DNA of 64,000 bases from assembly GCA_029269725.1 (NCBI GenBank), contig JARJHS010000011.1, forward strand, positions 62,001 to 126,000, in the 5' to 3' direction. Shown piece by piece: positions 14,813-55,458 of the stretch. Source of the stretch: Pollutibacter soli (GTDB lineage Bacteria > Bacteroidota > Bacteroidia > Chitinophagales > Chitinophagaceae). Both the position numbers and the translations under genes were made by a program. The number at the start of each line of letters is the position of its first letter. Position 1 is the stretch's first letter. Under the pieces are notes generated by a model. It did no database searches, had not been told where the DNA came from, and saw only the letters and a list, made by a program, of their open reading frames with translations.

Positions 14813-14854
14813 TCTCCGTTGTTGGTGTCTAACTTAAACCGCGGGCTGTTCCTC

Positions 14855-14892
14855 CCCCTCTTTCGCGAAGCGAGAGAGGGGGAGGGGGTGAG
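14855..14892. repeat. solo GC-rich palindrome related to the DUF559 element ends
   Basis: CCCCTCTTTCGCGAAGCG and the following GAGAGGGGG-type arm form a hairpin, continued by GGGGGTGAG, which touches the stop codon of the outer-membrane factor gene at 14893. The same order of hairpin and GGGGGTGAG is found at 54530-54567, there touching the stop codon of a tonB gene. Confidence 0.7.
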
Positions 14893-16323
14893 TCAGTTCC
14901 ATCCTCCCCCGAGCGCCTTATAAATATTTACCTTGGACTGCATCTGCTTCAACTTAATCTCGACCAGGTCGATCCTCGATTCCAGAGCTTCACGCTGTGT
15001 CAGCAACACTTCAACATAATCTGCTCGGGCAGAACGGAAGAGACTATTTGAAATATTAATCGACTGCGTGAGAATGTCTACCTCTTTTGATTTGGTTTCA
15101 AAACTTTTTGTGAAATTATCTATCCTGTTGAGCTGATTGATCACTTCAATATGTGCATTCAGGATCGTCTGTTCGTAGTTATAGATGGCCTGTATCTGTT
15201 TTGCATTTGCATTGAGATAATTGGCCTTGATCGCGTTCCTGTTGACCAGCGGAGCGATCATATCACCAGCCAGGTTGTACAGGATCGATTTTACATCAAG
15301 CAGGTACACCGGGTTGAAAGATTGAAGTCCCACGCCGGCGGTTAACCGAAACTGCGGGTAAAAATTTGCCTTCGCTACTTTGATATCCAGTCGTGCAGCT
15401 GCAAGCTCGAGTTCTGCCTGGCGGATGTCCGGACGGTTCACCAGCAGCTGGGATGGAATACCAGCATTCACCACACCAAATGCCATATTATTGAACGAAG
15501 CAGAATTTCTCTCTATCGGCTGCGGAAATCTGCCCGCAAGAAAATTGATCCTGTTTTCGGCTTCAACAATTTTCTGCAGGATTTCATACTGGAGATTCTG
15601 TGTATTGAGCAGCTGCGCCTCAAAACGGTTTACCGCAAGTTGTGTAACCTTCGCCGCTTCTTTTTCCAGCTTGATTACACTGAGCGCGTTACTCTGCAGA
15701 TCCATATTCTGTCGCACGATACTCAACATATTGTCGAGCGCCATGAGTTCGTAATAGGAATTTGTAATCTCTGCTACCAGGTTCGTCTGCAGGAAATTTC
15801 TGCCTTCTGCCGAAGCTGCATATCTCAACACAGCGGCCTTCTTTGCATTTCTCAATTTCTTCCAGACGTCCAGTTCCCATGATGCATATACACCCACCAT
15901 AAAATCAGGCAGCGGTTTTGGGAACTCTTTCCCTGGTTTGATTTCCAGGTTTTCTTCTACGGCACCATTGCGTGTGTACTCACCTGATTTATCAATACCG
16001 ATTCCGGCACCCACATTTACAAAAGGAAGATATTCCCCTTGTCTTGCCCTGATCTCATTTTTACTGATGTTGATTTCCTGCAACACGATATTCAACTCCT
16101 GGTTATTTCTCAGCGCTGTATCAATCAACGCTGAGAGATAAGGATCAGTAAAATATTCTCTCCATTGAATTTTTGCAGAATTGGTACTGTCCTGGGCGCT
16201 GATATAGCCCGCAGGTGTGTTTTTATTTTCCGGTCTACTGGTAAGCTCTGGTGTTTTACATGCCCAGAACATACCCATCAGAAAAAACAGGACTAAGTGT
16301 TTAGGCGATATTTTCTTTACCAT
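14893..16323 (-). CDS. RND efflux outer-membrane factor (TolC/OprM family lipoprotein)
   Basis: A 476-residue lipoprotein with signal MVKKISPKHLVLFFLMGMFWAC and a lipobox Cys at about residue 22. The mature part has two repeats of the outer-membrane efflux family, each with long helices (for example NRPDIRQAELELAAARLDIKVAKANFYPQF, a hallmark region) and short beta strands. It forms the trimeric outer-membrane channel of a tripartite efflux system. The start overlaps the end of the pump gene by 23 bases, so the two are translated together. The order adaptor, pump, channel on one strand is the standard RND arrangement. The stop codon is immediately next to a GC-rich palindrome. Confidence 0.93.
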   Translation of the reverse strand: MVKKISPKHLVLFFLMGMFWACKTPELTSRPENKNTPAGYISAQDSTNSAKIQWREYFTDPYLSALIDTALRNNQELNIVLQEINISKNEIRARQGEYLPFVNVGAGIGIDKSGEYTRNGAVEENLEIKPGKEFPKPLPDFMVGVYASWELDVWKKLRNAKKAAVLRYAASAEGRNFLQTNLVAEITNSYYELMALDNMLSIVRQNMDLQSNALSVIKLEKEAAKVTQLAVNRFEAQLLNTQNLQYEILQKIVEAENRINFLAGRFPQPIERNSASFNNMAFGVVNAGIPSQLLVNRPDIRQAELELAAARLDIKVAKANFYPQFRLTAGVGLQSFNPVYLLDVKSILYNLAGDMIAPLVNRNAIKANYLNANAKQIQAIYNYEQTILNAHIEVINQLNRIDNFTKSFETKSKEVDILTQSINISNSLFRSARADYVEVLLTQREALESRIDLVEIKLKQMQSKVNIYKALGGGWN

Positions 16324-50204: not shown

Positions 50205-50537
50205 TTAACTGGTTATAAATTTCTTAATATTACGCTTATCCTGATAATTCACAATCATCGCCTGATACATAAAATTCTCAAGATCAAAAAAAACATCATA
50301 TTTCGTTCCACTATATGGACTTCGAATAGTTACCCATGTATTTTTAAATGTTACACCTTCAGTAGACGTCCTTTTATGAACGTCCCATGGATTGTCCCAG
50401 TTTGCTTTAGATTCCACATAGTTGAAGGAATGTGACAAAGGAATTCTATCTGGGTTATTTGCATTAAAATCAACGGTCTCAATTGATCGTTGAACTTGTT
50501 TATCTAACTCCCTGAAATCTATCCGCATCGATTTCAT
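50205..50537 (-). CDS. hypothetical protein, perhaps frameshifted near its end
   Basis: A 110-residue frame from ATG at 50537 (KSMRIDFRELDKQVQRSIE) with a mixed soluble sequence including WVTIRSPYSGTKYDVFFDLE. No family is recognised. From about 50225 another frame without start codon reads EIYNQLIIDQGFLLKRTNRK and onward to a stop at 50083; it has a protein-like composition and would extend this protein by about 45 residues if a one-base shift occurred near 50225. The start overlaps the end of the 46-residue gene upstream, so both may be translated together. The 49873-50204 gap holds this possible extension and nothing else seen. Confidence 0.45.
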   Translation of the reverse strand: MKSMRIDFRELDKQVQRSIETVDFNANNPDRIPLSHSFNYVESKANWDNPWDVHKRTSTEGVTFKNTWVTIRSPYSGTKYDVFFDLENFMYQAMIVNYQDKRNIKKFITS

Positions 50538-50640
50538 CTAATGAATACTCTAATTGATAAATTAAAAGATACAATTCTATAACAGCTATTAAACTTAAGA
50601 CTAGAGCGCCGTAAATAATTCGCCGTTTATTCTGTTGCAT
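50500..50640 (-). CDS. 46-residue single-span membrane protein
   Basis: Reads MQQNKRRIIYGALVLSLIAV and onward from ATG at 50640 to a stop at 50500. Basic residues precede one hydrophobic segment (residues about 9-29) and a short acidic tail follows (LDEIDADRF), so an N-in single-span topology is likely. It starts 6 bases after the end of the restriction-modification remnant and overlaps the next gene by 38 bases. No family is recognised; existence rests on the membrane pattern and tight spacing. Confidence 0.4.
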   Translation of the reverse strand: MQQNKRRIIYGALVLSLIAVIELYLLIYQLEYSLDEIDADRFQGVR

Positions 50641-50646
50641 TTTTAA

Positions 50647-52019
50647 TTATTCAATGTTAATCATGTCTATTTCATTCATAATCCGATTCGTTTCGAATAA
50701 CGCTACAATAATTTTCTGGTAATATAAGATATCTTTAAGCGTCAATTCCCGGCCTTTACGATCCTTAAGCCATTTCTGTGCCGGTTGATACCCACCTATC
50801 AAGAAATGCCACGCTATAAGCGGGGCCCCTTGAAAAAACTGGGTGTCATTTATGTAAACTCTCCCCATTTGATAAACTTGATCAAGATAGATAATATCAT
50901 TCCCGTTCACTTTTTCATAGTTTTCTACGAAATGAATCAGAGTAACTTTATTATCGCCGTCTAATGGGTATTCCGTAATATATGACTCCAATGATTCAAT
51001 TTCAAAAAGTTGAATTTTTCGTAACTCACTACTCAACGCAACTAATCTCCAAAAACTTACTTTACTATCTGGATACGGTACACGTGGAAAATCAATTTTT
51101 AAAAACTTTTTGAATTTCTCTCTCTAGGTTGGTGAATGTAAAATCGCGTTGACTTAATCCAAAATGTCATTTCGGGCAAAAGAATCTTTTGTTGCCTCCT
51201 TTTCCGAGGTAAAAGTTAAACCCAATTCGTCCTCAATTTGGCTCACAAAGTCTACGTTTAAGTTTGGAATTCTTTCCAATTGGTGACCAAATATTTTGCC
51301 CGTTGTTTTCCACATATAAGTACAGTGGAAATACATAACCCTTTCTATTGATTTATTGGAAACGAAAGAGTCATCCACAATTTTATTAATAAGGAAAATA
51401 TGAGAATAGCCATCTGAAAAGATCTGGCGACATAAGTAAATTCCAACATTACCACCTTTCAAAAAGTGTTGCATTACGTCAACTCTCCATCGCAAAAGTA
51501 ATTTATTGACAAAATAAGTATATCTGTCATCAAATAATCTGTATGCGATTATAGCGAATTTTGAAGCTTCTATTTGAATTGATTATCTATTACTTATAAT
51601 CCAATCAGCATAATTCTTACCTAACCCAAATACTCGATTAAGAAACTCTTCATTCATTTCGTTTCCCAAAAAGGAGTTTAATCGTTCTTTTAAAACCGTC
51701 AAATTTTCTTCAATGATAAAACTGTCTCCCATCGTAACAATACCAGTTACATTTTTTGGAAACAAAGCGTCTACTCTAAACCCACTCTTATACTTTTCTT
51801 GTCCTTGGTTGTCTGCAGCGAAAAAAATATAAATGGTTTTTCTGGACTTATCTCTTGAAAATCAACAGATTTTAAGTCCTTTCGAGAAAGAAAATCATAC
51901 TTCATTTCTCTTTCACCGAATAAATCGAAATGAAATACTTCACCTAATTCATTAGGTTTTTTCTTACCTGTTTTCACAAAGAAGTTGATTGAAACACCTT
52001 GCATAATATCAAATACGTT
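50647..52019 (-). pseudogene. C-terminal remnant of a restriction-modification enzyme (type ISP/IIG-like methylase)
   Basis: A decayed reading of about 455 codons. It starts beside the mnmE end with NPANVFDIMQGVSINFFVKT, passes EREMKYDFLSRKDLKSVDFQ, shifts frame near 51800 (KYKSGFRVDALFPKNVTGIV follows in the new frame), and then runs in one frame with three in-frame stops: TAA at 51583-51585 after ADWIISNR, TAA at 51154-51156 after ARNDILD, and TAG at 51124-51126 before REKFKKFLKIDFPRVPYPD. The end has WHFLIGGYQPAQKWLKDRKG and LTLKDILYYQKIIVALFET, typical of the specificity end of single-chain type ISP/IIG enzymes. The methylase and nuclease parts are missing upstream. It cannot make a working enzyme. 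Confidence 0.8.
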
Positions 52020-52024
52020 TGCCG

Positions 52025-52044
52025 GGTTACTTTCCGATACAGAA
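52025..52044 (-). repeat. att-like direct repeat within the mnmE 3' end
   Basis: The minus-strand reading encodes the last residues of MnmE and its TAA stop plus CC. Identical in all 20 bases to 46740-46759. If this is an integration site, the island supplies or keeps the mnmE end so that the gene stays whole. Confidence 0.7.
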
Positions 52045-53403
52045 CTTACTAAACACATAATCCAGCACATCATCATTCGTTACTTCACCGGTAATCTCTC
52101 CGAGAAAATGTAAACAACGACGTATATCCAGTGCAATCAGATCTCCCGGAATTTTTGCATCAAGACCAGCACTGATATCGATCACGGATTGACGCACTTG
52201 CAGCAGTGCTGAATAATGACGCGAATTTGTAATAATTACATCTTCTGTATTCACCTCGCCGGAAAGAACAGATTCGGTCAGACCTTTTTTTAATTTATCG
52301 ATGTGATCGTTGTTTTTTGCAGAAAGAAAAATGATGCCCGGTATTGACCCGAATTTTTCTAAAGCATTATCCTCTCCAATAATATCAGCTTTGTTACCGG
52401 CAAGTACATAGCGAATATCACGCGACTTAAAATCTTCGGTTATCCCCCTTAATTCCTCCTCAGTCATTTCATTTACATCAAACAGATAAATTACCAGGTC
52501 GGCCTGGTTCATTTTTTCGATGCTTCTCTGTACACCGATACTTTCGATAACATCAGAAGTGTGCTCGCGGATTCCGGCTGTATCAATAAGTCTGAAGAGA
52601 ATTCCATCAATATTCAATACTTCTTCAATGGTGTCCCTCGTTGTTCCTGCAATCTCGCTTACGATGGCACGATTATCATTCAGAAGCGCATTCAGCAATG
52701 TTGATTTGCCTGCATTGGGTTTGCCAATGATTGCCACCTGTACACCGTTCTTTATAACGTTACCAAGTTTATATGATTCAAGTAATGCCTCTGTAGTTCG
52801 CTTTGTTTCATCGAGGAGTTGATAGAGTTGCTTTCTGTCGGCGAATTCCACATCTTCCTGGGAAAAATCAAGTTCAAGTTCTATCAATGCCGAAAAGGAA
52901 ATCAACCGATCACGCAATTCTTTCAGCTTTCCGGAAAAACCTCCCCTGATATTATTCAGCGCAGCTTTCCTGGAAGCTTCCGTATTACTGGCGATCAGAT
53001 CAGCAACTGCTTCTGCCTGCGTGAGGTCCATCTTTCCATTCAGGTAAGCACGTTGTGTAAACTCGCCTGGCTTCGCGTGTCGGGCGCCGGCGGCTATGCA
53101 TGCCTGTAATACCTGCTCCTGCACGTATGGCGAACCATGACAGGAAATTTCAACAACATCTTCACCGGTATACGACTTTGGTCCGCGGTACAGGCTCACC
53201 ACCACTTCATCGATAGCAACATTACCAGACTTCAATATGCCAACATGCAATGTATGTGAGGCCGCGTTCTTCAGATCTTTCGATGGAAACAGATCATTGA
53301 TGATATCAAAACTGCGGGCGCCACTCAGCCGTATAACAGCGATCGCGGCAATACCCGGCGCTGTGGCCACTGCAGCAATTGTATCGGTCCATGCTCCCTT
53401 CAT
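52027..53403 (-). CDS. mnmE: tRNA uridine-5-carboxymethylaminomethyl modification GTPase MnmE
   Basis: A 458-residue protein. The N-terminal tetrahydrofolate-binding domain (TIAAVATAPGIAAIAVIRLSG, EISCHGSPYVQEQVLQACI) is followed by a helical domain and an inserted GTPase domain: G1 GKPNAGKST near residue 225, AGTTRDTIEE, DTAGIREHTSD, NKAD and SAKN. It ends with the conserved FSKFCIGK, whose Cys is needed for activity. With MnmG it modifies U34 of several tRNAs. Length is typical and the gene looks intact up to the stop codon, which is inside the direct repeat of the candidate island. An exbD gene ends 40 bases upstream on the same strand. Confidence 0.97.
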   Translation of the reverse strand: MKGAWTDTIAAVATAPGIAAIAVIRLSGARSFDIINDLFPSKDLKNAASHTLHVGILKSGNVAIDEVVVSLYRGPKSYTGEDVVEISCHGSPYVQEQVLQACIAAGARHAKPGEFTQRAYLNGKMDLTQAEAVADLIASNTEASRKAALNNIRGGFSGKLKELRDRLISFSALIELELDFSQEDVEFADRKQLYQLLDETKRTTEALLESYKLGNVIKNGVQVAIIGKPNAGKSTLLNALLNDNRAIVSEIAGTTRDTIEEVLNIDGILFRLIDTAGIREHTSDVIESIGVQRSIEKMNQADLVIYLFDVNEMTEEELRGITEDFKSRDIRYVLAGNKADIIGEDNALEKFGSIPGIIFLSAKNNDHIDKLKKGLTESVLSGEVNTEDVIITNSRHYSALLQVRQSVIDISAGLDAKIPGDLIALDIRRCLHFLGEITGEVTNDDVLDYVFSKFCIGK

Positions 53404-53443: not shown

Positions 53444-53944
53444 TTATTCCAGTCGACGCAGATCGTCTCTATCTGGTTCTACGATTGCATAACGCGTAAT
53501 GTTATTGATCAGCATTTCATCCAGGAGATTGATCAGCGTACTGTACTCGCAGGATTCCAGTGGCTTAATCATCACCACCATATCTGTCGCTTTACCTGCG
53601 GCAGCAACCTGGTCTCTGCGTTTAATGATTGCATTACGTAAGGAGTGCATCCCGGGAAGTGTCGATTTCTGAAAACCTGCAGGATCTCCATCTGCACATT
53701 CATACCATGCAACCTGGGAGTCGCTTGCAAGAATGGTAAATGATGTACTGCATTTAGTAGGTGTCGGATCGCCTTCATCCTTTGGCATTTTGAGATCCAG
53801 CGCCTGTGGTTTTATCATTTGTGATGTGAATATAAAAAATGTGATCAGTAAAAAGCCCAGATCCACCATCGGTGTCATATCGATACGAAGCGAGTGGATT
53901 TTTCTGAAGCCTTTTTTGCTGGAGATATTTTCGGTGATTTGCAT
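53444..53944 (-). CDS. exbD: ExbD/TolR family protein (third copy)
   Basis: A 166-residue protein with a short cytoplasmic start, then RIDMTPMVDLGFLLITFFIF, the single membrane span with the proton-path Asp of the ExbD family (VDLGFL), and a periplasmic domain (IKPLESCEYSTLINLLDEML, RYAIVEPD). It is closest in pattern to the ExbD at 57189-57725, with the same RxDMTPMVDLGFLLITFFIF stretch. It helps turn proton flow into work on TonB. It follows the second tonB gene, from which it is now separated by the DUF559 element, and lies upstream of mnmE. Confidence 0.92.
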   Translation of the reverse strand: MQITENISSKKGFRKIHSLRIDMTPMVDLGFLLITFFIFTSQMIKPQALDLKMPKDEGDPTPTKCSTSFTILASDSQVAWYECADGDPAGFQKSTLPGMHSLRNAIIKRRDQVAAAGKATDMVVMIKPLESCEYSTLINLLDEMLINNITRYAIVEPDRDDLRRLE

Positions 53945-54016: not shown

Positions 54017-54054
54017 CTCACCCCCGGCCCCTCTCACGCTTCGCGCGAGAGGGG
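54017..54054 (+). repeat. left terminal inverted repeat of the DUF559 element
   Basis: Starts CTCACCCCCGGCCCCTCTC, then CGCTTCGCGCG and GAGAGGGG. It is the inverse of 54530-54567 apart from one C/G difference in the CCGGC/CCGGG stretch. Confidence 0.85.
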
Positions 54055-54152
54055 AGAAAAGGCAGTAAAACCTCGATAATCTATAGAATTTTCACACTGG
54101 ACTTTGTGCATTTCAACTTGTTTTTCATGAGCCTGGAATAGAGTTTTGTACA

Positions 54153-54521
54153 ATGTCAAAAATGGTTTCTATAGTATATGCTCGTGAATTAAGGCAAAAG
54201 CAAACACCCGCAGAGGAACTAGCATGGTATCTTTTACGAAACAGAAAATTTCTGGGTTTAAAATTCAGGAGGCAATACCCGATTCATATCTCGTCAAATG
54301 GACAGTGCCAGATTTTTTACATCGCTGATTTTTATTGTCCACAGTATAAGTTCGTACTTGAACTCGATGGGGATTATCATTTGCACAGAAAAGAATATGA
54401 TCAGATTCGTGATAAGGAAATGGAAGTACAAGGAATTCGTGTTCTCCGAATAAGCAATGATCTCATCTTAAAAAATTATCGTGAAGCCCTTGAAAAAATA
54501 AAACTATTTCTAGGACTCTGA
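54153..54521 (+). CDS. DUF559 endonuclease-like protein (Vsr-related fold)
   Basis: A 122-residue protein of the DUF559 family, which has the PD-(D/E)XK fold of the Vsr mismatch nuclease. The start region ARELRQKQTPAEELAWYLLR is the family hallmark; LKFRRQYPI, then FYIADFYCPQYKFVLELDGD give the catalytic Asp and the ExD that stand for D and ExK, and YHLHRKEYDQIRDKEMEVQG with IRVLRISNDLIL completes the domain. Proteins of this kind occur in many copies in Bacteroidota genomes without known role. It is enclosed by inverted repeats and sits against the strand of its neighbours, so it appears to be the payload or the motor of a small element. Confidence 0.9.
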   Translation: MSKMVSIVYARELRQKQTPAEELAWYLLRNRKFLGLKFRRQYPIHISSNGQCQIFYIADFYCPQYKFVLELDGDYHLHRKEYDQIRDKEMEVQGIRVLRISNDLILKNYREALEKIKLFLGL

Positions 54522-54529
54522 CCATTCCA

Positions 54530-54567
54530 CCCCTCTCGCGCGAAGCGTGAGAGGGCCCGGGGGTGAG
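54530..54567 (-). repeat. right terminal inverted repeat of the DUF559 element
   Basis: CCCCTCTCGCGCGAAGCG followed by TGAGAGGG and CCCGGGGGTGAG. Its last base is next to the tonB stop codon at 54568. The repeat at 14855-14892 has the same order. Confidence 0.85.
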
Positions 54568-55416
54568 CTACTCCTCCTGCAACTGAAACGTTACCGCTTG
54601 ATTGCGATAGGCTTTCACATGTTTCCCATTTTGCAAAGCGGGAATCCATTTTGGACCCTTGCGTATTGCATTTAATGCAATCTCAGCGAGTTTAGATCCA
54701 CTGCCTAAACAATTATTTATTCCTGTCTGACCACAATTAAGCACTCTTACATCGCTTACGTTTCCCTCTGTGTCTACTATAAAATTTATCATAACTGACC
54801 CTGAACGTCCGTCATCCTGAAGTTCATCAATATTGCGATTCACTTCTCTGCTAACATACCTGGTCCATGCTGCGGCACCACCAGGAAACTCCGCTTCCTT
54901 CTCTACCTTAAGAAAAACAGTATCTGCGGGTTTACCTTTCGGGGCATCCATGACAGAACTGACATTGTCAACGGGTGGCGCAATCACACCTTCGAATTTG
55001 CCACCATCCTGAGTTACCGTGCTGATCTTCGCATCCTCTTTATCATCCACTTCAGGAGGCATCTCTTCTTTTTTTACTTCTTCATCCTTTACGACCCTGA
55101 ATGTAACATCGCGTATGGTTGCCACCCTCGGAGGTTCTACCGGTTTCGGTGGAATAATCACCGGTTCATCCTTCGGAATGTCAACTTCTTTGAGATCAAC
55201 AACAGGGACAACTGGTAAAAATTTTACTTTCCCCTCATTCGATGACAACGCATACGAACTCAATAAAATGATTGCAGCCAAGCCAGCAGTAATAACAAGC
55301 GCTTTTGTCAAACGATCATTGTACTTCTTTCTTAACTCGTACGCACCATACTCTTTATTGCGTCCATCAAAAATGATGTCCAGCAGCGGTGCTGTGGTGA
55401 TTTGATTTTTTTCCAT
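54568..55416 (-). CDS. tonB: TonB family energy transducer (second copy)
   Basis: A 282-residue protein from the ATG at 55416 (MEKNQITTAPLLDIIFDGRN); the frame is open 14 codons further but the homologue at 57126 starts at this point. A cytoplasmic motif GRNKEYGAYELRKKYNDRLT precedes one membrane span (KALVITAGLAAIILLSSYAL), a Pro-rich periplasmic linker (IPKDEPVIIPPKPVEPPRV) and a TonB C-terminal domain (GRSGSVMINFIVDTEGNVSD, NAIRKGPKWIPALQNGKHVK). It transmits energy from ExbB/ExbD to outer-membrane receptors. It shares most motifs with the TonB at 56275. An ExbD gene follows beyond the DUF559 element. Confidence 0.93.
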   Translation of the reverse strand: MEKNQITTAPLLDIIFDGRNKEYGAYELRKKYNDRLTKALVITAGLAAIILLSSYALSSNEGKVKFLPVVPVVDLKEVDIPKDEPVIIPPKPVEPPRVATIRDVTFRVVKDEEVKKEEMPPEVDDKEDAKISTVTQDGGKFEGVIAPPVDNVSSVMDAPKGKPADTVFLKVEKEAEFPGGAAAWTRYVSREVNRNIDELQDDGRSGSVMINFIVDTEGNVSDVRVLNCGQTGINNCLGSGSKLAEIALNAIRKGPKWIPALQNGKHVKAYRNQAVTFQLQEE

Positions 55417-55458
55417 AACAGTGTTTTTAATTGAGAAGCTGTATTGAAAAAAATCCAC

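Follow-up and report, generated by a model that had tools for sequence, protein, structure and literature searches.

A DUF559 gene enclosed by inverted palindromes

The window (the whole 64 000-nucleotide stretch of Pollutibacter soli DNA that was analyzed) contains a DUF559 nuclease gene at 54153–54521 on the plus strand, which encodes a protein of 122 amino acids. Its PF04480 match (E-value of 9e-29, 99.9 bits; the curated cut-off is 20.6) was the only one returned by the profile search of the 6.1-Mb genome, and Pfam assigned nothing else to the protein apart from one PvuRts1I-like match below the cut-off. The gene is preceded by a terminal palindrome (54017–54054, plus strand) that begins with a head, CTCACCCC, followed by a spacer and a hairpin, CCCCTCTC..GAGAGGGG. 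On its other side lies the inverted copy of this palindrome (54530–54567, minus strand), which abuts the start of the tonB stop codon. The neighboring genes, assigned by Pfam as ExbD (53444–53944) and a TonB_C protein (54568–55458), are both on the minus strand, so the first-pass annotation was correct in placing the DUF559 gene between tonB and exbD on the opposite strand. The ORF list of the window contains no further ORF of at least 80 amino acids wholly inside the outer ends of the element.

The outer 38 bases of the two arms match as inverted copies at 37 positions, and complementarity over 46 nt (54017–54062 with 54522–54567) is 91%. Inverted-repeat alignment of the flanks gave a score of 72 (the best of 100 shuffles scored 29), and each arm forms its own hairpin as single-stranded DNA. 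The z-scores of these hairpins range from −0.7 to −2.9, depending on the arm and strand; by themselves, the hairpins therefore depart only moderately from expectation. The lone gene within foldable inverted ends, as first described, is thus confirmed, and a chance repeat as the source of the arms was ruled out by their complementarity and the shuffle comparison. The pattern CCCTCTC-N11-GAGAGGG (up to two mismatches) has four matches in the window, two of them overlapping, compared with 0.11 expected. At the element ends, no target duplication beyond two matching bases was detected with offsets allowed, and this lack of a direct target repeat ruled out the simple form of a duplication-making insertion sequence. 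Rfam searches at the gathering score gave 0 matches in the window and in seven of the in-frame loci described below. The best reading of the 551-bp segment, which we consider somewhat better than an even chance, is that it is a copy of a nuclease element bounded by palindromes.

In a pattern scan, the exact form of the head pattern of the left palindrome recurs at solo sites. When up to three mismatches were allowed, the head CTCACCCCCGGCCCCTCTC had eight occurrences in the genome (none for the backward control). Two of these are the element ends, and the remaining six belong to five more palindromes, one of which (L004/L007) carries heads on both sides. A solo palindrome of the same kind that lacks a nuclease is intergenic in the window (14852–14892, minus strand; pattern match 14854–14880; G000:C3:76874-76892) and stops at the start of the stop codon of the adjoining ORF (14893–16323), which by reading encodes an outer-membrane efflux-like protein. 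The stems vary among the palindromes. Read by eye, the two sides of L008 carry matching changes (CCACTCTC with GAAAGTGGGG). As a separate observation, the palindromes at 14852–14892 and 54530–54567 both end at the start of a neighbor's stop codon, which may reflect a site preference or selection.

Predicted structure of the nuclease

An alignment of 20 sequences has D59, E70, and D72 in every member and E21 and H76 in nearly all. By analogy with PD-(D/E)XK/EDxHD families, we take these five residues to be catalytic. The structure model of the window protein has a pLDDT of 87. In a fold search with this model, the nearest match was 3hrl, a DUF559 structure (E-value of 5e-7, the sole match below 0.001), which is also the sole sequence match in the PDB. 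The second was 3r3p, the homing endonuclease I-Bth0305I (E-value of 1.3e-3, probability of 1.00, 18–19% identity), and PvuRts1I/AbaSI ranked third; E. coli Vsr was absent from the best 50 fold matches. The protein is therefore predicted to adopt a nuclease fold that is nearest to DUF559 and then to a homing endonuclease. Pfam still labels DUF559 as a family of unknown function.

Close relatives and the tonB/exbD position

Protein matches were found in 18 of 60 genomes, own genome included. The closest relatives of the window protein are those of G033 (70%) and G031 (46%), and the same palindrome adjoins both, on both sides of the gene in G031 and as a single two-headed copy on one side in G033. 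None of the other 23 relative loci scanned has a head and hairpin of the window type together, and several of these carry a different inverted palindrome. Across the 60 genomes, the exact sequence CTCACCCCNNNCCCCTCTC occurs at five places in the own genome, two in G033, 17 in G031 and one in G047; with one mismatch, it is present in 11 of the 60. Three of the four genomes with an exact head are exactly those with a cognate DUF559 protein (Fisher's test, 1.2e-4). Together with the five additional palindromes of the own genome, these matches bear out the earlier suggestion that solo copies exist. The 17 exact head patterns of G031, compared with five in the own genome, are spread over several contigs.

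In the own genome, G033, and G031, the nuclease gene lies between tonB and exbD, as established by translating the neighbors. Because the position is shared, the window copy was inherited within the genus and is not a fresh insertion; it is an old copy, placed identically in two relatives of the same genus. The empty tonB–exbD junction that the first-pass annotation proposed to look for was not found among the exbD loci examined (flanks of up to 1.5 kb). These loci are arranged as exbB-exbD-exbD-tonB or parts thereof and have no such extra exbD behind tonB, and therefore offer no comparable empty junction.

Inverted ends accompany DUF559 genes

Inverted ends, defined by an inverted-repeat score of at least 30, were counted at DUF559 loci and in equally sized control windows from the same contigs. 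They are present at 14 of 20 standalone loci of Bacteroidota (mostly the closest matches from the 60- and 395-genome searches, and not a random draw), compared with 6 of 1859 control windows. For in-frame loci, the counts are 12 of 20 in a first set (11 of 1052 windows) and 64 of 79 in a larger one (4 of 2806 windows; 79 of 80 loci scored). The set from other phyla comprised 17 of the 23 plasmid-collection matches, and nine of these have inverted ends (7 of 703 windows), four from Deinococcota, three from Cyanobacteriota, and two from Pseudomonadota. Loci below the threshold number 6 of 20 standalone, 15 of 79 in-frame, and 8 of 17 outside the phylum; the last eight are E. coli ycjD and loci from Photobacterium, Sinorhizobium, Methylobacterium, Azospirillum brasilense, Picosynechococcus (one), and Synechocystis (two). 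Shuffle scoring of relative loci omitted L026, L027, and L032 (short flank). Ends of the same kind thus occur at other DUF559 loci, in agreement with what the first-pass annotation had anticipated, and the shuffle score, the control windows, and the solo copies together ruled out a pure terminator reading of the palindromes.

DUF559 relatives were found in 23 plasmid and five phage records, all below 60% identity. The right flank of E. coli ycjD contains one CCCTCTCCC stretch, and end scoring detected no inverted pair at this gene. The 81-bp region behind ycjD was found in 3312 of 5426 E. coli genomes, each with a single copy. With one place per genome and no inverted pair, ycjD was rejected as a model of the element. 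In 178 of the 3312 genomes, the 81-bp region matches at 80–90% identity. On four Deinococcus plasmids, DUF559 lies among 4-hydroxyphenylacetate (hpa) genes in three cases and among paa genes in the fourth (L196, L307, L311, L312).

Palindrome type and enzyme

Among 395 sampled Bacteroidota genomes, 137 have DUF559 matches at an E-value of 1e-10 or below, and 45 contain the exact pattern CTCACCCCNNNCCCCTCTCC, the backward control of which gave no match seen across the same scan. DUF559 was matched at this threshold in 33 of the 45 pattern-bearing genomes and in 104 of the 350 others (p = 2e-8, uncorrected for relatedness and genome size). Of the remaining 12 pattern-bearing genomes, one has PF04480 and 11 have none (compared with four positive among 12 comparison genomes without the pattern), so orphan palindromes exist. 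The link between palindrome and enzyme is thus looser over the 395 genomes than over the 60 near ones. At 51 loci (52 of 75 scored at least 30, with L063 and L068 representing one place and counted once), palindrome similarity correlates with protein similarity (Mantel r = 0.30, 0 of 1000; with close pairs removed, r = 0.24, 0 of 1000), although shared ancestry alone could produce part of this correlation.

In-frame copies inside conserved genes

The larger surprise, absent from the first-pass annotation, is that relatives of the element occur in frame within other genes. Among the matches listed from the 395 genomes, 24 are in open frames of at least 300 amino acids, 19 of which are 839–1484 amino acids long. 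Twenty of the 24 loci were retrieved, and those that were read consist of a single frame in which the DUF559 domain is both preceded and followed by host protein. An alignment of in-frame domains, used to scan named genomes, yielded at least 587 stretches, at least 549 of them encoding relatives, and the best 80 of the 549 were analyzed. These come from Bacteroidota groups except for one 'uncultured bacterium'. All 80 are in open frames longer than 300 amino acids (10 reach a contig end), a rate that is biased because the query was built from in-frame members. The sites are in methylmalonyl-CoA mutase (22), LeuRS site A (30), LeuRS site B (18), IleRS (3; the name is our reading of a class I synthetase), TruB (2), MetH (2), UvrA (1), RecG (1), and a type ISP restriction enzyme (1), with L241 and L245 assigned by eye. 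Overall, at least eight different genes serve as hosts of in-frame inserts. Since no frame is interrupted within the insert, as far as the contigs extend, the in-frame copies are taken to be translated within the host protein.

Pfam detected DUF559 together with host domains in each of nine in-frame proteins. In at least seven of them, host domains flank DUF559 on either side; in TruB, DUF559 is at the C-terminal end. When compared with known structures, the LeuRS of L246 aligns with residues 4–235 of 1h3n and, after ∼160 further residues, with 237–876, and the UvrA of L297 aligns with residues 23–603 and then 610–959 of 9gxk. The inserts are thus discrete. No intein domain was found in nine host proteins at an E-value of 1e-8 or below, which, with the lack of Rfam matches, ruled out an intron or intein. 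In one genome (G164, locus L070), a DNA-methylase-like ORF contains at least three more in-frame palindrome peptides beside its DUF559 insert (by eye).

Occupied, empty, and palindrome-only sites

In Mucilaginibacter, 40 of 61 genomes match the mutase, and 14 of the 40 have open frames of at least 1278 amino acids. The 34 distinct rows available for this site (45 of 52 parsed, 11 duplicates removed; a genus sample plus matches chosen for the nuclease) comprise 23 with the nuclease, eight that are empty (10–12 residues), and three with palindromes or a truncated element and no nuclease (19, 38, and 41 residues). Of all occupied/empty pairs, L244 and L110 are the closest, with 92.5% identical host DNA. 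Many ends read AGCCTCACCC...GGGTGAGGCT, and inspection of the printed ends by eye revealed no direct repeat that would indicate target duplication at the mutase inserts. At LeuRS site B, 23 of the 30 loci of the G107 family were readable; G107 has 161 residues at the site and the other 22 have 13–22, including the nearest relative, G542 (88% in the query part), which is empty with 13 residues. At the empty LeuRS site A of L163 (G532), the peptide SLTPGGEGLA resembles a palindrome remnant.

The mutase states require nine changes on the host tree, at least five of them forced by starred branches. Shuffled labels gave a mean of 10.0 changes and as few in 57 of 200 cases, so the states are not clustered. 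Divergence among the mutase elements parallels that among their hosts (Mantel r = 0.46, 0 of 2000), and the element is more similar than the host in only 4 of 253 pairs. A single origin at the site was not rejected by the AU test (p = 0.157). Given the host-parallel divergence, the unclustered states, and this AU result, an old insertion with repeated loss fits the mutase as well. Repeated gain is hinted at by the clade of L105, L106, L107, and L244, in which the elements are 69–74% alike and the hosts 82–86%, and the three empty members have QGG at the site in common.

LeuRS sites A and B each need several changes (at least five and at least four by starred branches), so that more than one lineage has used the same site. 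One starred group (100/99) spans both sites, with L271 (site A) and L273 (site B) as sisters (100/94). Their elements are 79% alike in amino acids and 82% in DNA, and their hosts are 70% alike before site A, 54% behind it, and 74% at the C-terminus. Around site A (before and behind), L271 is nearer to L283 (82% and 80%) and L273 to L269 (82% and 73%), the elements of which are 66% like that of L271 and 70% like that of L273, respectively. At its own site A, L273 has a 35-residue remnant with two palindromes and no nuclease. We read this pair as suggesting transfer with a change of site, and hence as a sign of movement, but both are metagenome-bin contigs and a binning or assembly fault is therefore possible; the C-terminal host parts are 74% alike between L271 and L273 and 69% between L271 and L283. 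No insertion between near-identical strains was seen. The mobility inferred for the element in the first-pass annotation is thus partly supported, by the occupied and empty orthologues of its relatives and by L271/L273 at different sites, but not for the window copy, which is at the same place in G033 and G031.

A candidate palindrome-bounded element

In REP/RAYT systems, the gene of a Y1/HUH enzyme is located between hairpin palindromes that are inverted relative to each other and have a short head; solo palindromes are also present, and enzyme and palindrome co-vary. The window element shares the enzyme gene alone between inverted hairpin palindromes, the short head, the solo copies, and the co-variation of types, and differs in its enzyme, which is of the PD-(D/E)XK/Vsr type and not a Y1/HUH transposase, and in its relatives, which also occur in frame inside genes. 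The REP-like layout with another nuclease family, as proposed at the outset, is therefore what was found: inverted hairpins and solo copies are present, and no Y1/HUH domain was detected. REP/RAYT systems appear to be among the closest known systems, as far as the accessible parts of their descriptions go (PMC2817692, PMC3116915, PMC8266576).

We propose, with a probability of roughly 0.6, that the segment is a palindrome-bounded element with a REP/RAYT-like layout and a Vsr/EDxHD-type nuclease. Its plan would be a head and hairpin, the DUF559 (Vsr/EDxHD-type) nuclease gene, and a hairpin and head, with each enzyme matched to its own type of palindrome. The nuclease would be the mover, recognizing the hairpin or the imperfect duplex of an extruded or single-stranded palindrome and presumably nicking at the base of the hairpin. 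Host repair might then join the element or a bare palindrome to a new site without target duplication, and the solo copies would be the non-autonomous form. In a sister group, a frame that is open through the palindromes would have permitted an in-frame seat in loops of conserved proteins, with the palindromes coding for Pro/Ser/Gly-rich linkers. The broader proposition, for which we see the chances as evenly balanced, is that DUF559 nucleases are the enzymes of unnamed, cross-phylum, autonomous palindromic elements that drive dispersed C-rich palindromes, one branch of which is unspliced and translated in LeuRS, IleRS, UvrA, RecG, and other proteins.

A different and rather unlikely explanation is homing, in which DUF559 would cut the empty allele of a fixed site, host recombination would copy the element in, the palindromes would be by-products or repair aids, and in-frame insertion would replace splicing. 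I-Bth0305I as the second fold match would fit this, as would the fixed positions of the inserts in conserved genes, their patchy distribution, and the use of LeuRS sites A and B by more than one lineage each. The element tree also follows the host site, with 14 changes compared with 41.9 after shuffling (0 of 200 as low), but inheritance yields such clustering by site too. The protein tree places the L107 element with that of L115 (99/91), in conflict with the host tree. However, its DNA is 74% like that of L115 and 74% like that of L105, and AU tests do not reject one clade, so horizontal transfer of this mutase element was discarded. In its treatment of inteins, one paper assigns a Thermosynechococcus DUF559 gene to the EDxHD homing family (PMC9403480); the accessible part of that paper links DUF559 to homing, and its main text does not mention palindromes. 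Homing leaves without explanation the co-variation of palindrome and enzyme, the solo copies at other sites, and the near-alike elements at LeuRS sites A and B. Since the types co-vary, solo copies occur in near relatives, and a near-alike element is present at two sites, action of the nuclease on the palindromes is favored over homing.

It is improbable that the palindromes belong to another system (Y1/RAYT REPs or terminators) and that DUF559 became trapped between two of them as a passenger. Y1_Tnp genes are present in all 10 genomes tested, four of them in the genome of the window, so absence is no argument against another enzyme, and 11 pattern-bearing genomes lack a DUF559 match. However, in the own genome the palindromes are on contigs 3, 33, and 34 and the Y1 genes on contigs 1, 2, and 23. 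None of the four scanned motifs is present at three of the four Y1 loci. At the remaining one (L324), the Y1 match lies more than 0.9 kb away from two copies of GGGTGAG, which is the head read from the opposite strand. It would also be unlikely for a single gene family to have been captured repeatedly in four phyla. Least probable of all is a housekeeping mismatch-repair or defense nuclease flanked by regulatory palindromes or terminators, comparable to Vsr or to Caulobacter VsrA, which is proposed to repair TG mismatches and on which an SOS response depends according to the accessible part of the report (PMC12907096): E. coli ycjD would fit with its lack of such ends by score, but the inverted copies at both ends, far above control windows, the solo copies, and the inserts inside different conserved genes argue against it.

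Relation to known systems

The palindrome-bounded element that we favor shares features with several other systems. Its predicted nuclease fold resembles that of the EDxHD homing endonuclease I-Bth0305I (PDB 3r3p), which, as described in the accessible part of the paper, has extra DNA-binding regions unlike the 122-residue window protein (PMC3943268). The fixed conserved-gene sites of its in-frame relatives, with occupied and empty versions, are also like those of EDxHD homing genes; unlike in these, no intron or intein was found, there are flanking palindromes and solo copies, and the window copy is intergenic. The Rickettsia palindromic elements, to judge by their description in the portion of the source available, are similar to the relatives' palindromes in that they lie in frame in different genes, whereas the window copy is intergenic; they are ∼150 bp long, with no enzyme named there, unlike the window palindromes that bound a nuclease (PMC10969869). 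Caulobacter VsrA has the same DUF559 domain as the window gene but is a proposed repair enzyme, and the part of the report available mentions neither palindromes nor gene mobility (PMC12907096). The titles and abstract starts searched contained no description of a palindrome-bounded DUF559 arrangement, nor was DUF559 found together with 'inverted repeats' in the literature covered, a search scope outside of which most subscription journals and bioRxiv fall. Within these sources, as far as they were accessible, the link of DUF559 to homing (PMC9403480) and in-frame Rickettsia palindromes (PMC10969869) are already known, and their combination was not found.

If DUF559 mobilizes palindromes, the orphan nuclease family would account for a class of dispersed repeats and the repeats for the family, by a chemistry that REP transposases do not use. 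If nuclease domains do remain unspliced in essential enzymes, splicing would not be a prerequisite for the entry of selfish DNA into highly conserved genes, and the in-frame inserts would serve as natural experiments that reveal how much the loops of tRNA synthetases and repair enzymes tolerate.

Two further loci were noted. In-frame insertion is not confined to Bacteroidota, as a Pseudanabaena galeata plasmid (L309) carries, near brxC, a 4866-bp CDS that contains DUF559 and long inverted ends. In the window itself, ORF fragments at 50205–52076 on the minus strand, adjoining mnmE, resemble by eye the type ISP-like restriction enzyme that hosts the insert of L078 and are apparently decayed.
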